Positions 17,288 through 23,624 of a stretch of DNA of 64,000 nt are shown one piece after another. The notes under the pieces were generated by a model. That model saw only the letters and a program-made list of their open reading frames with translations. It had not been told where the DNA came from and did not search any database. The position numbers and the translations under genes were made by a program. The first letter of the stretch is position 1. Each line of letters starts with the position of its first letter. The stretch comes from Oceanibacterium hippocampi (lineage in GTDB: Bacteria > Pseudomonadota > Alphaproteobacteria > Sneathiellales > Sneathiellaceae): positions 1,938,335 through 2,002,334 of the forward strand of contig NZ_FWFR01000001.1 in NCBI RefSeq assembly GCF_900172325.1, given 5' to 3'.

Positions 17288-18916
17288 ATGCGTAGCGTGT
17301 ACGAGGCGTTTCTGGACAGTGTCGGGGCCGCCCCCGGCAATGCCTTCCTGGCGGTCCCGCCAGCGCCCGGACGACGCTACCACCCGGACGGGCTCGAACT
17401 CAGTTACGGCGAGGCCCATGCCGCCGTCGAGGCGCTGAAGACGGCCTATGGCGAGGCCGGCTACGGCCCCGGGCATCGGGTCGCGGTGCTGCTGGAGAAC
17501 CGCCCGGACCATTTCCTGCACAGCCTGGCGTTGAACGGTCTCGGCGTCTCGGTGGTGCCGATCAACCCGGACTACCGGGACGACGAGGCGCTCTACCTGC
17601 TGGAGCATTCCGAGGCGGCGCTGGTTGTCAGCGTGCCCGAACGGGCCGACGACATGCGCCGGGTCGCCGCCGGCCGGGCGATGCCGCTGCCGGTGGTCGA
17701 GGCCGGCGCGGCGCCGGGCATCCTGGCCGGTCTGCTGCCCGCGGCGGCGACGCCGGCCGGACGGGCGGTCCCCGATCTCGCGACCGAGGCGAGCCTGCTC
17801 TACACCTCGGGCACCACCGGGCGGCCCAAGGGCTGCATCCTGACCAACGACTATCACCTGACCGCCGGGCGCTGGTATGCCGGTCTCGGCGGCCTGCTGA
17901 CGATCCGGCCGGGCGAGGACCGGATCTACAACCCGCTGCCGATCTTCCACATGAATGCCGGCGTGGTCTCCTTCGTCTGCATGCTGCTGACCCGGAACTG
18001 TCTGATCAGCCCGGACCGCTTCCACCCGGCGACCTGGTGGGACGATGTCGCGGCGACCGGGGCGACGATCATCCATTACCTGGGCGTCGTGCCGCCGATG
18101 CTGCTCAACCAGCCGCCCACTCGGGCCGAGCGCGCCCATCGCGTGCGCGTCGGACTGGGCGCCGGTGTCGAGCCGGAACTGCACGGCGCCTTCGAGGTCC
18201 GTTTCGGCTTTCCCCTCGTCGAGGTCTGGGGGATGACCGAGACGGGGCGGATCTTCGCCGACAACCACGAACCGCGCCAGATCGACACCCGCGCCTTCGG
18301 CCGCCCGCATGACGATTTCCAGGCCCGCGTGGTCGATGATTCCGGCCAAGAGGCTCCGGCGGGCGAGCCGGGCGAACTGCTGGTCCGGGCCGATGCCGAC
18401 GATCCCCGGCGCGGCTTCTTCGCCGGCTATCTGAAGAACGAGGCGGCAACCGAGGAGGCCTGGCAGGGCGGCTGGTTCCATACCGGCGACATCGTCCGCC
18501 AGGGCGCCGACGGCATGCTCTATTTCGTCGACCGCAAGAAGAACATCATCCGCCGGTCCGGCGAGAATATCGCCGCCGCGGAGATCGAGGCGACCCTGCA
18601 GGCCCATGACGCGGTTCGCCAGGTCGCCGTGATCGCCGCTCCGGACGAACTCCGCGAGGAGGAGGTGATGGCCTGCATCGTGCCGATGGCGGGCGAGACG
18701 CCGGACGCGGCGCTGGCCGAGCGGCTGTTCGCCTGGTGCGTCGAGCGGCTCGCCTATTTCAAGACGCCCGGCTGGATCCTGTTCGTCGAGACGCTGCCGA
18801 CGACCGGCACACAGAAGGTCCAGAAGACGCAGATCTTTCCGCCCGGCGAGGATCCGCGACAGCGCCCCGGCGCGCTCGACTACCGCGACCGGAAGCGGCG
18901 GCGCAAGCGCGCCTGA
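17288..18916 (+). CDS. AMP-forming acyl-CoA synthetase (ANL family)
   Basis: Activates a carboxylic acid to its acyl-adenylate and then to the CoA thioester. The 542-residue product has the phosphate loop YTSGTTGRPKG at 172-182, the A5 motif VEVWGMTETG, the GWFHTGDIV and DRKKNIIRRSGENIAAAEIE segments and a C-terminal domain ending with TGTQKVQK, the catalytic-Lys region. The substrate is not predictable; the closest functional types are crotonobetaine/carnitine- or aryl-type CoA ligases. It starts 57 bp after parC with GGGAGGGGACG just upstream. Possibly co-transcribed with parC, although unrelated in function. Confidence 0.9.
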   Translation: MRSVYEAFLDSVGAAPGNAFLAVPPAPGRRYHPDGLELSYGEAHAAVEALKTAYGEAGYGPGHRVAVLLENRPDHFLHSLALNGLGVSVVPINPDYRDDEALYLLEHSEAALVVSVPERADDMRRVAAGRAMPLPVVEAGAAPGILAGLLPAAATPAGRAVPDLATEASLLYTSGTTGRPKGCILTNDYHLTAGRWYAGLGGLLTIRPGEDRIYNPLPIFHMNAGVVSFVCMLLTRNCLISPDRFHPATWWDDVAATGATIIHYLGVVPPMLLNQPPTRAERAHRVRVGLGAGVEPELHGAFEVRFGFPLVEVWGMTETGRIFADNHEPRQIDTRAFGRPHDDFQARVVDDSGQEAPAGEPGELLVRADADDPRRGFFAGYLKNEAATEEAWQGGWFHTGDIVRQGADGMLYFVDRKKNIIRRSGENIAAAEIEATLQAHDAVRQVAVIAAPDELREEEVMACIVPMAGETPDAALAERLFAWCVERLAYFKTPGWILFVETLPTTGTQKVQKTQIFPPGEDPRQRPGALDYRDRKRRRKRA

Positions 18917-19010
18917 GGCACCTCGGGCGCCGCTCGCGGAAGGCGAGGGAAGGGCTGCGCCGGCCACCCAGACGGTCCCGGCACGATCCGCGGCACGGCC
19001 GCGATAATAA

Positions 19011-19052
19011 GATTGACTAGGAAACTTTATCGAAATAGTTTCCTAGTCAATC
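19011..19052 (+). promoter_or_regulatory. 42-bp palindromic operator upstream of marR
   Basis: GATTGACTAGGAAACT (19011-19026) and its exact complement AGTTTCCTAGTCAATC (19037-19052) flank a 10-base AT-rich spacer. The TTGACT in the left arm could serve as a -35 box. The site ends 12 bases before the MarR start codon, where an autorepressor would be expected to bind; the inner TAGGAAAC/GTTTCCTA halves look like the two half-sites of a MarR-type operator. Confidence 0.75.
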
Positions 19053-19064
19053 ACGAGGATCGCC

Positions 19065-19526
19065 ATGCCGCCCACCGCACCCGTTTCCGACCTTACCCAG
19101 CATCTCGGCTTCTGGCTGCGCATGGTCTCGAACCACGTCTCGCAGGCCTTCGCGGGCAAACTCGCGGACCAGGGGGTGACGGTCGCGGAATGGTGCCTGA
19201 TGCGGGCGCTTTACGACAGGGAACCGACGGCGCCGAGCCGTCTGGCGGACGCCATGGGCATGACGCGGGGGGCGATCAGCAAACTCGCCGACCGTTTGAT
19301 CGCCAAGGCGCTGATCCAGCGCGAGGCCAGCGTCGACGACGGCCGGGCGCAGACACTGGCGCTGACGCCGCGGGCTGTCGCACTGGTCCCGGAACTGGCC
19401 GCACTGGCCGACCGCAACGACGCCGAATTCTTCCAGTGCCTCACGGCGGCAGAACGGGAAACCCTGGAACGGCTGCTGAAGCGCATGGTCGAACGCAATC
19501 GCCTGACCGCGACACCGATCGATTGA
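19065..19526 (+). CDS. MarR-family transcriptional regulator
   Basis: A 153-residue winged-helix repressor or activator that normally works as a dimer. N-terminal dimerisation helix (LTQHLGFWLRMVSNHVSQAF), DNA-recognition helix region near residues 60-80 (LADAMGMTRGAISKLADRLIAKALI) and the wing DDGRAQTLALTPRG-like segment (DGRAQTLALTPRAVALVPEL), then a C-terminal helix. The large palindrome immediately upstream suggests autoregulation. It is followed after 32 bp by the DUF1398 gene on the same strand, a likely target of the same promoter. The ligand sensed is unknown. Confidence 0.92.
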   Translation: MPPTAPVSDLTQHLGFWLRMVSNHVSQAFAGKLADQGVTVAEWCLMRALYDREPTAPSRLADAMGMTRGAISKLADRLIAKALIQREASVDDGRAQTLALTPRAVALVPELAALADRNDAEFFQCLTAAERETLERLLKRMVERNRLTATPID

Positions 19527-19558
19527 TCCAGGTCCCGGTCACGTCACGGAGAACAGCC

Positions 19559-19960
19559 ATGAACGATCACCAGAAGGCTACCGCGCGCGCCTGTCTCGAC
19601 GGGGCGGAGGACGATACGATGAGTTTTCCCGAGATCGTCGGCGCCCTCATCGAGGCCGGCTTCGAGGGCTACGCGATCGACTTCCGACGCGCCACCGCAA
19701 CCTACTACCTGCCGGACGGGGGCAGCGTGGCGCTGCCCGCCCATGGCGTCGGGGCCGCCGTCGCGCCGGACTTCGATGCCGCCGGCATGCGGGCCGCCAT
19801 CAGGGAGGCACAGCAGCAGGCCCCCGGCTACAGTTACCGGGGCTTCTGCGAAAAGGCCGTGGCGGCCGGCTGCGCCGGTTACATCGTGTCCTTCCCCGGT
19901 CGCCGGGTTCTCTATGTCGGTCGTTCGGCGGAAACCCACGTCGAGCATTTCCCCGACTAG
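19559..19960 (+). CDS. DUF1398 family protein
   Basis: A 133-residue protein resembling the DUF1398 (YbcV-type) family: MSFPEIVGALIEAGFEGYAIDFRRATATYYLPDGG is taken as roughly residues 21-55, then a C-terminal part with GYSYRGFCEKAVAAGCAGYIVSFPGRRVLYVGR (about 95-125), where these proteins have a conserved YxxFC and Y-x-V-x-F pattern. No catalytic role is known for the family. It starts at ATG 19559-19561 with GGAG about ten bases ahead, 32 bp after marR, so it is probably co-regulated with the MarR protein through the palindrome at 19011-19052. Confidence 0.8.
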   Translation: MNDHQKATARACLDGAEDDTMSFPEIVGALIEAGFEGYAIDFRRATATYYLPDGGSVALPAHGVGAAVAPDFDAAGMRAAIREAQQQAPGYSYRGFCEKAVAAGCAGYIVSFPGRRVLYVGRSAETHVEHFPD

Positions 19961-21631: not shown

Positions 21632-22171
21632 TCAGACCCTCTCGATCTCTTCGTCGGACGGCGCCTCATGGCCGGTCAGGACGAGAATGCTGTGAATGAT
21701 CATCGAGATGGCCTGCGCGATCATCAGCGCGCAAAAGATCAGGATTGCCGTCTTCAGCAGGAAGACCAGCGGGATCCCGCTCGTTTCCTTGGAGCCCTCG
21801 AAATGGGCCCAGGAATTCCAGACATAGGGGAAGGAGGTCCACCAGATCGTCGCGCATACCGGGATCAGCAGGAACAGCGAGCCGAACAGGTCGACCTTCG
21901 CCTGGCTCGGCGGCTTCGCGGTCCGGTAGAAGATGTCCACCCGGACGTGGCCGTTGTGCAGCAGCGTGTAGCCGGCGCCGAGCAGGAACAGCAGCGAGTG
22001 CATGTAGACGATCGATTCCTGCATGAACAGGGAACCGATGCCGAACACGTAGCGCAGCACGACAACCGTGAACTGCACAAGGACCATGACCACGGCCAGC
22101 CACGCCACGTAGCGGCCGACCGTGCCGTTAACGGCGTCGATCGCTCGCGCGAGTTTCGCGATATTCTGCAA
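21632..22171 (-). CDS. dctQ: TRAP transporter small permease subunit (DctQ)
   Basis: Small four-helix membrane subunit of the TRAP transporter, about 180 residues. Hydrophobic segments follow RYVAWLAVVMVLVQFTVVVLRYVFG; the motif QESIVYMHSLLFLLGAGYTL and HNGHVRVDIFYR are characteristic of DctQ. Start choice: a GTG at 22175-22177 is immediately adjacent to GGGAG with no spacer, whereas TTG at 22169-22171 has GGGAGG five bases ahead, so I prefer TTG. It ends two bases before the dctM GTG, implying coupling. A 175-bp gap with a terminator hairpin separates it from dctP. Confidence 0.9.
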   Translation of the reverse strand: MQNIAKLARAIDAVNGTVGRYVAWLAVVMVLVQFTVVVLRYVFGIGSLFMQESIVYMHSLLFLLGAGYTLLHNGHVRVDIFYRTAKPPSQAKVDLFGSLFLLIPVCATIWWTSFPYVWNSWAHFEGSKETSGIPLVFLLKTAILIFCALMIAQAISMIIHSILVLTGHEAPSDEEIERV

Positions 22172-22293
22172 CGGCACCTCCCAATGCCCGGAGAACTGAT
22201 GCGCCTGCGGATGGACCTTGATCCGGTTTCTCTTCCGCGGGCGGGTAATGTTTCCCTGACGAAAAGCCTCTGACCTGATTTCGGGGCGGAACG

Positions 22294-22325
22294 AAAAACC
22301 CGCATCGGCTGTCCGATGCGGGTTT
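22294..22325 (-). terminator. Intrinsic terminator or attenuator between dctP and dctQ
   Basis: A 13-bp perfect stem, AAACCCGCATCGG (22296-22308) and CCGATGCGGGTTT (22313-22325), with a 4-base loop; on the minus strand it is followed by a run of T to 22294. It begins about 20 bases after the dctP stop codon and precedes dctQM, so it should cut most transcripts after the binding-protein gene. Confidence 0.85.
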
Positions 22326-22346: not shown

Positions 22347-23453
22347 TCAGCCGCCATACTTGAAGGGAAGCAGACGGGCCTGCATGTATGCCTGATCGGA
22401 CAGCTTGCTCATCCGGATCGCCTGTTTGCGGAAGGCGATGAAGCTGTCGTAGATCTTCTTCTGGATGCCGCCCTCGTTGGCCACCCCCTGCATGACGTCG
22501 TTCGACGCCTCGCCGATCGCCTGCATGACGTCGTCGGGCATGCGCCGGGTCTGCACGTTGTGCTTGTTGATGAGGGTGTCGAGCGCGCCGGAATTCTTCG
22601 CGTTGAATTCCGAGTACATGTAGTTGTTCTCGGCTGCGGCGGCGTTCTCGACCAGCGCCTGATCGGCCGGCGAGAAGCTTTCCCAGACCTTCTTGCTCAT
22701 GCCGAGGGCGAGGCCCGAGCCGGGCTCGTGATAGCCGGGCCAGTAGTAGTATTTCGCGACCTTGTAGAAGCCGAAGGCCAGGTCGTTCCACGGCCCGACC
22801 CATTCGGTTCCGTCGATCGCGCCGGACTGGAGCGCCGGGAAGATCTCGCCGCCCGGGAGCGCCACGACCGAGGCGCCGAGCTTGCGCAGCACTTCGCCGC
22901 CGAGGCCGGGCATGCGGAACTTCAGGCCCTTGAGATCCTCGACCGAATTGATCTCCTTGTTGAGCCAGCCGCCCCACTGCACGCCGGTATTGCCGGCCAT
23001 CAGCGACTTCAGGCCGAAGTCACCCGCGAGTTCGTCCCAGAGTTCCTGACCGCCGCCGAAATTGACCCAGGCGTCGAGCTCGTTGGCGAGGAAGCCGAAC
23101 GGCACCGCGGTGAAGAAGTTGAAGGCGGTCGACTTGCCCTGCCAGTAGTAATCGGCCGCGTGATACATGTCGGCTGTGCCACTCGACACCGCGTCGAAGC
23201 TCTCGAAGGGCGGTACCAGTTCGCCGGCGGCGAATACCTTGACCGTGATCCGGCCGTCAGACGACTTGGTGATGCGGTCGGCGACGCGCTGGGCACCCGT
23301 GCCGAGGCCCGGGAAATTCTTTGGCCAGGTCGTGACCATCTTGAGCTCGCGCTTGCCCTGCGCGAGCGCCGGAGCCGGCAGATTTGCCGCGGCTGTCGCC
23401 GCGACAGCCGCGCCGGCAACCGATGCGCCCTTGATGAATGAACGGCGGTCCAT
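22347..23453 (-). CDS. dctP: TRAP transporter solute-binding protein (DctP/TakP-like)
   Basis: Periplasmic binding protein that delivers substrate to DctQM. The 368-residue product starts with a twin-arginine signal, MDRRSFIKG, a hydrophobic stretch and an ALAQ-type cleavage site near 29-31. Downstream it has GNTGVQWGGW, KEINSVEDLKGLKFRMPG, GGEIFPALQSGAIDGTEWVGP and KYYYWPGYH, a set close to the alpha-keto-acid binder TakP of Rhodobacter, so a 2-oxoacid or related carboxylate is the likely ligand. ATG 23451-23453 has GGGAGG ahead; the longer in-frame start would bury the Tat motif. Export through Tat implies cytoplasmic folding, usual in this subfamily. Confidence 0.93.
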   Translation of the reverse strand: MDRRSFIKGASVAGAAVAATAAANLPAPALAQGKRELKMVTTWPKNFPGLGTGAQRVADRITKSSDGRITVKVFAAGELVPPFESFDAVSSGTADMYHAADYYWQGKSTAFNFFTAVPFGFLANELDAWVNFGGGQELWDELAGDFGLKSLMAGNTGVQWGGWLNKEINSVEDLKGLKFRMPGLGGEVLRKLGASVVALPGGEIFPALQSGAIDGTEWVGPWNDLAFGFYKVAKYYYWPGYHEPGSGLALGMSKKVWESFSPADQALVENAAAAENNYMYSEFNAKNSGALDTLINKHNVQTRRMPDDVMQAIGEASNDVMQGVANEGGIQKKIYDSFIAFRKQAIRMSKLSDQAYMQARLLPFKYGG

Positions 23454-23624
23454 GTAGTGCCTCCCTGTTATGATCATTCGGCCGAAATCAAGCTCGGCTT
23501 CGTCATTTGGTCTGTTTCGGTTCATGGCCTAAGCCATTTCCACCACCAGAGTATCAAGACTGATGTGCCGAATGCAATAAACGGGTTCGTGTTCGCTGAC
23601 GGCAGTGCCAACAAGGGTGACTGT

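Follow-up and report, generated by a model that had tools for sequence, protein, structure and literature searches.

A perfect inverted repeat of 42 bp lies between an acyl-CoA ligase gene and a marR gene in the 64,000-nucleotide stretch of the Oceanibacterium hippocampi genome analysed here (the window), and it raises the question of what reads this repeat and which genes would respond. An initial annotation proposed two stacked MarR sites giving autoregulation of marR together with control of the DUF1398 gene that follows. From sequence comparison, we conclude that the palindrome is very probably the operator–promoter of an autorepressed two-gene marR–DUF1398 operon, with one MarR dimer predicted on each arm.

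The palindrome upstream of marR

The palindrome (19011–19052, no strand assigned) was located by an inverted-repeat search and reads GATTGACTAGGAAACT-TTATCGAAAT-AGTTTCCTAGTCAATC, with all 16 positions of the arms paired around a 10-base spacer. It lies downstream of the AMP-binding acyl-CoA ligase gene (17288–18916) and ends 12 bases before the ATG of marR at 19065. The arm length, spacer and distance to the start codon given in the initial annotation are confirmed at these coordinates, and the TTGACT it pointed out is present at 19013–19018, inside the left of the two boxes described below. Among perfect inverted repeats with loops of up to 20 bases, this is the longest in the 64-kb window, the runner-up having arms of 13 bp. 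Base composition predicts about 0.002 such repeats, and in each of 12 simulated order-1 windows the longest arm was 10–12 bp. The exact 38-bp core pattern of the palindrome occurs once in the 4.83-Mb genome.

Elsewhere in the window, a perfect inverted repeat with 13-bp arms and a 4-base loop (22296–22325) stands between the TRAP genes dctP (22347–23525, minus strand) and dctQ (21632–22177, minus strand); it may form a hairpin that favours output of the solute-binding protein over the permease.

Two MarR boxes at conserved spacing

Each arm of the window's palindrome holds one 12-bp box, TTGAC-TA-GGAAA, in a 5-2-5 layout. The left box (19013–19024, plus strand) has its dyad between 19018 and 19019 and is conserved in 25 aligned sites of the same spacing; the right box reads TTTCC-TA-GTCAA on the plus strand (19039–19050), in inverted orientation to the left one, and is centred on a dyad at 19044/19045, so that the two dyads are 26 bp apart.

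We compared 38 loci: the window's own, 20 of the 21 from a related-locus search, 2 from 60 relatives, 12 from 385 genomes of the class and 3 from 398 genomes of the phylum. L058, an actinobacterial match of 44% over 45 residues, was dropped as a non-orthologue. The search of the 60 relatives yielded as orthologues the window's own gene, L009 and L010; 27 weaker matches (L011–L037) served as controls and the rest were unused. The truncated frame of L055 was excluded from the MarR alignment and tree, and its record, which ends soon after marR, was unusable for the DUF1398 neighbour test. The 36 aligned orthologous regulators are 40–81% identical to the window's MarR. A crude comparison of gene neighbourhoods was dominated by shadow reading frames and was excluded from the evidence.

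Pairs of boxes were scored (maximum 20) over dyad spacings of 18–30 bp. A score of at least 17 was reached in 35 of the 38 loci, with spacings of 26 bp (25 loci), 25 bp (2), 21 bp (2), 20 bp (3) and 30 bp (3). The 30-bp pairs (L069, L072 and L073) were left out of the count, so that a paired operator stands upstream of marR in 32 of 38 loci, the window included. In the same scan, the 27 control MarR genes reached at most 16, a contrast that is descriptive because the score was designed after the orthologues had been inspected. One hundred letter shuffles of each orthologous upstream region gave maxima of 15–18, the value of 18 for L038 exceeding the 17 scored by L054, L055 and L057. Besides the three loci with 30-bp pairs, those without a counted pair are L049, L060 and L070, which scored 15–16. 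One good box only is found at L049, L060 and L072, and one credible box at L069, L070 and L073. The spacing follows lineage: the named records with 25–26 bp sites are alphaproteobacteria, and the five pairs at 20–21 bp come from a betaproteobacterium (L052), gammaproteobacteria (L053, L054 and L057) and an unplaced proteobacterial draft genome (L055).

The palindrome could in principle be a single site, with one MarR dimer or another symmetric protein reading all 42 bp and taking a half-site from each arm; the window's arms pair without a mismatch along their 16 bp, and L010, L041 and L067 show coordinated changes in the two arms. Each arm alone, however, has the layout of a MarR box. The right box of L040 and L045 is TTTCC-TG-GGAAA, with GGAAA as its outer half, and is symmetric in itself (TTTCCTGGGAAA); both boxes of L052 are TTTCCATGGAAA, and the boxes of L053–L055 and L057 are of this kind too, so that these five loci carry two TTTCC-NN-GGAAA-type boxes, several of them symmetric in themselves. 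These observations indicate that each arm is a complete site and that TTGAC is a variant of the TTTCC half-site. Furthermore, the spacing varies (20, 21, 25 and 26 bp) while the content of the boxes stays, and the L073 promoter has one perfect box. Since each arm forms a complete box in orthologues, we reject a single oversized MarR box, and we regard any protein spanning the whole repeat as very unlikely. The comparison supports, by contrast, the two stacked MarR sites of the initial annotation, since orthologous marR–DUF1398 operons are also preceded by conserved box pairs.

A putative embedded promoter

The two-box operator appears to contain the promoter of marR. The putative −35 hexamer, TTGACT (19013–19018, plus strand), lies inside the left box, and the putative −10, TAGTTT (19036–19041, plus strand), follows after 17 bp and overlaps the right box. 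TTGAC[T/A] and TAnTTT are present in all 27 sites with 25–26 bp spacing, separated by 17 bp in 25 of them and by 16 bp in two. In the 25 sites of 26-bp spacing, the left TTGAC is invariant and its right-hand mirror deviates in three to four sites at two positions, a difference in constancy that is not significant (p 0.23 and 0.11). The T and A of the −10 are also invariant (25/25), whereas the position mirroring the T is A in 18 of 25 sites (p 0.0096) and the position mirroring the A is T in 8 of 25 (p 2.2e-7). Since TAGTTT is conserved beyond what the symmetry of the palindrome demands, it is best explained as a −10. It is a poor match to sigma-70, and a strict sigma-70 consensus scan did not report this −35/−10 pair; its sole promoter-like match in the region was on the minus strand (19033–19004). 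A GAGG at 19055–19058 (plus strand) is, from its sequence, the likely ribosome-binding site of marR. In L064 and L065, only a few bases separate the right box from the probable start codon of marR, and the transcript would thus have almost no leader.

The position of the promoter also bears on whether the repeat acts as RNA, either by terminating transcription of the acyl-CoA ligase gene or as an element in the 5′ leader of marR. The window's repeat folds strongly (−25.2 kcal/mol, z −6.35), and the joint change of both arms in three loci would suit a stem, but a search of 18900–19120 for an intrinsic terminator (a stem with a T run) found none. All 12 box pairs are intact in just 14 of the 25 sites of 26-bp spacing, with predicted energies from −8.9 to −23.1 kcal/mol, and transcription directed by the conserved −10 would begin within the right arm, at about 19045–19052, leaving the hairpin out of the mRNA from this promoter. 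The terminator scan and the incomplete pairing of the boxes disfavour the RNA hairpin, which we consider highly improbable.

The operator takes a second form in eight loci (L052–L055, L057, L069, L070 and L073), where the TTGACA-like −35 is not part of the first box, whose dyad falls 16–17 bp from the start of the −35, in the −35/−10 spacer. As the boxes sit differently relative to the −35 in the 26-bp and the 20–21 bp sites, the same gene pair has two operator geometries. A separation of 20–21 bp corresponds to two helical turns and would place two bound proteins on the same face of the DNA; 26 bp is about 2.5 turns and would place them on opposite faces.

On the proposed mechanism, two MarR dimers would bind the 5-2-5 boxes, one per arm, the dyads being separated by 26 bp (~2.5 helical turns). 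With the presumed −35 hexamer inside the left box, and the −10 and likely start overlapped by the right one, occupied boxes would shut out RNA polymerase, and MarR would thereby repress both its own gene and DUF1398. A signal that releases MarR would then allow both genes to be expressed. Binding by this MarR, repression rather than activation, co-transcription and the existence of a ligand are steps that we infer from the sequences, and the comparison as a whole supports the autoregulation proposed in the initial annotation.

The regulator and its recognition helix

The marR gene (19065–19526, plus strand) encodes a 153-residue MarR-family regulator, the likely autorepressor. It matches PF12802 (53.7 bits against a cut-off of 27, E 2.4e-14) and PF01047 (41.9 bits against 24.6, E 9.1e-11), and so has the MarR winged-helix domain; among the 60 PDB chains listed as matches, most are named as MarR-type regulators. 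It falls far below the cut-offs of all ten matching NCBIfam models, including Saro_0803 (51.5 bits, cut-off 200), HpaR (43.5, 121.2), SlyA (39.4, 120), BilQ (37.7, 125) and E. coli MarR (36.4, 240).

In 35 of the 37 aligned regulators, the stretch [T/S][R/K]GA is found at the start of what we take, from MarR structures in general, to be the recognition helix. The two exceptions, L069 and L070, have DKSS or DKST in its place, and in their promoters TTGCATATGCAA replaces the usual box. They form one clade in the MarR tree, and the change of helix and box therefore counts as one event. The single TTGCATATGCAA box of these two loci is flanked by a perfect TTGACA on one side and a TATAT-type −10 on the other. 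That the box differs where the recognition helix differs argues that this regulator itself reads the boxes. The operator might instead serve a different regulator or a wide regulon, with this MarR as just one target gene, and MarR-type genes are indeed numerous in the window's genome (14 matches at E<=0.001). The site, however, occurs once in that genome and tracks this group of MarR orthologues together with DUF1398, and it changes with the helix in the one clade where the helix differs; we hold such an arrangement to be the least probable of the alternatives considered.

The regulator is patchily distributed, with an orthologue at E<=1e-25 in 13 of the 385 class genomes. Members of different families are in some cases neighbours in the tree: L039 (Rhodospirillaceae), for example, groups with L043 (Rhizobiaceae) at a support of 95/71, and this suggests horizontal spread of this MarR.

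Linkage to DUF1398 and extent of the regulon

The predicted second gene of the operon encodes a DUF1398 protein of 133 residues (19559–19960, plus strand) and starts after a 32-bp gap. Its reading frame is open backwards through marR and the palindrome (19013–19960), which is probably an artefact of G+C-rich sequence; an automatic gene finder could call the start too early.

A DUF1398 gene follows marR in 34 of the 37 testable loci. In L070 (genome G382, 1468–2358), MarR and DUF1398 share one open frame of 297 residues, in which the DUF1398 part retains an initial MMN, suggestive of a lost stop codon. No DUF1398 gene adjoins marR in L049 and L060, which keep one good box there. Their genomes (G197 and G764) each have one DUF1398 gene remote from marR, about 494 kb away in G197 and on another contig in G764, and each of these lone genes is preceded, no more than 40 bp from its start codon, by two intact boxes with 26-bp spacing. 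Because the regulators of these two loci are sisters in the MarR tree (support 99/87), a single relocation event is probable; one of the two genomes is a metagenome-assembled draft. The paired operator at DUF1398 genes that stand apart supports the joint control of marR and DUF1398 envisaged in the initial annotation. Comparison of the loci establishes that the boxes come in pairs at defined spacings and contain conserved promoter-like hexamers, that marR and DUF1398 occur as a gene pair, and that the paired operator is associated with DUF1398. In the genome of L072 (G702), whose operator has one good box, a search for a remote DUF1398 gene at E<=0.001 found none. The DUF1398 relative of G204 (L091), a genome in which this MarR gave no match at E<=1e-25, lacks a good upstream box (best 8/10).

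DUF1398 was found at E<=1e-6 in 10 of 289 class genomes, nine of which also have this MarR. A search of all 385 class genomes with the paired pattern, outside which the 25-bp-spaced sites fall, gave matches in nine, each at one place: eight at marR and one at a lone DUF1398 gene. The reversed control had no match in the same 385 genomes. The suggestion of further copies of the palindrome that would define a regulon did not hold in the window's genome, where the full site is unique: apart from the palindrome's own two arms, single arms with up to two mismatches occur at 4 places, compared with 5 for the reversed control, and we therefore rejected a wider regulon there. The N14 scan pattern put forward in the initial annotation misses even the palindrome itself, because the true distance from TAGGAAAC to GTTTCCTA is 12 and not 14; it gave 0 matches in the window at up to three mismatches. 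The symmetric box TTTCCTAGGAAA, allowing one mismatch, was found at 0 places in the window's genome against 4 per strand for the control, a weak result as the window's own boxes differ from it by two bases. Since each matching class genome has the pattern at a single place, by marR or DUF1398, and the scans of the window's genome brought up no other convincing site, the regulon probably consists of marR and DUF1398 alone.

The DUF1398 protein

The window's DUF1398 protein matches PF07166 with E 0.00023 and 21.7 bits, 0.3 below the gathering score of 22, and we count it as a member; 33 of the 34 aligned proteins, this one included, match the family at E<=0.01 (best 5.6e-12). It has no match among the NCBIfam models. 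The predicted structure (pLDDT 95.8) consists of two successive helix-helix-three-strand units, and clearly resembles only one solved structure, that of E. coli YdfO (2HH8), with a Foldseek E of 2e-5 and a Z of 15.4 over 125 residues at rmsd 2.4. Within 19559–19957, F..G..Y residues are conserved in both tandem halves, suggesting an internal duplication.

PMC8711792 identifies YdfO as a DUF1398 protein. The window's protein shares its fold, yet the two sequences are 11% identical and ydfO, unlike the window's gene, is a prophage gene. In the available text of PMC4077768, ydfO rose 116.6-fold by qPCR 30 min after addition of the ionic liquid [C2mim]Cl and was not induced when [C2mim]Cl was present from the start of growth; the same text, citing another paper, states that overexpression of ydfO raises resistance to oxidative stress, and it mentions no MarR-type partner for the gene. 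A chemical-stress role for the window's DUF1398 is plausible, and we infer a stress-protective role for DUF1398. In the portions of the literature accessible to our search, no function assigned to DUF1398 proteins was found.

Discussion

In E. coli, the marRAB operon is autorepressed by a MarR-family protein through MarR boxes of the form TTGCC-nn-GGCAA at two operator sites. The window's system resembles it in its 5-2-5 box, in the multiple boxes at the promoter of the regulator itself and in the target gene downstream. It differs in its half-site (TTTCC/TTGAC), in the spacing of its two boxes, at 25–26 or 20–21 bp according to lineage, and in its target, which is DUF1398 and not an activator or efflux gene. 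Among named MarR subfamilies, that of Saro_0803 (NF053777) is the best-scoring for the window's MarR, although its 51.5 bits compare with a cut-off of 200. As described in PMC10046596, Saro_0803 has a 22-bp site near the −10 of nov1, and the nov1 promoter carries the inverted repeat GCAATA/TATTGC. That system differs from the window's both in this repeat and in its target, since nov1 encodes a stilbene-degrading enzyme.

Within the available portions of the openly licensed literature, we found no description of this operator or of a marR–DUF1398 operon; searches with the motif strings returned unrelated subjects only, and those for known double-site MarR operators brought up a single candidate, the archaeal plasmid-virus regulator Stf76. 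A MarR-autorepressed operon with a paired-box operator is a known kind of system. The apparent novelty lies in the conservation of marR and DUF1398 as a module, in an operator almost private to it and in the existence of two operator geometries.

A broader reading, which we offer tentatively and consider somewhat doubtful, takes MarR and DUF1398 together as a dedicated sensor–effector module that spreads horizontally. MarR would have DUF1398 as essentially its only target, and DUF1398 might detoxify or capture the signal of MarR or feed back on MarR; in one lineage (L070) the two even share an open frame. The operator would have been rebuilt between a form with the box in the promoter spacer (20–21 bp) and one with the box over the −35 (26 bp, opposite faces), while the regulated gene remained unchanged.

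The comparison links DUF1398, a poorly understood family, to a regulator, with similar paired sites preceding this gene pair in many distantly related bacteria. The naturally occurring operators (26, 25, 21 and 20 bp, and single-box) offer a comparison of how box number, spacing and promoter overlap shape repression by MarR proteins. The tight and widely conserved pairing with one MarR and one operator provides a route to the function of DUF1398, and because of that pairing the ligand that releases MarR should point to what DUF1398 handles.
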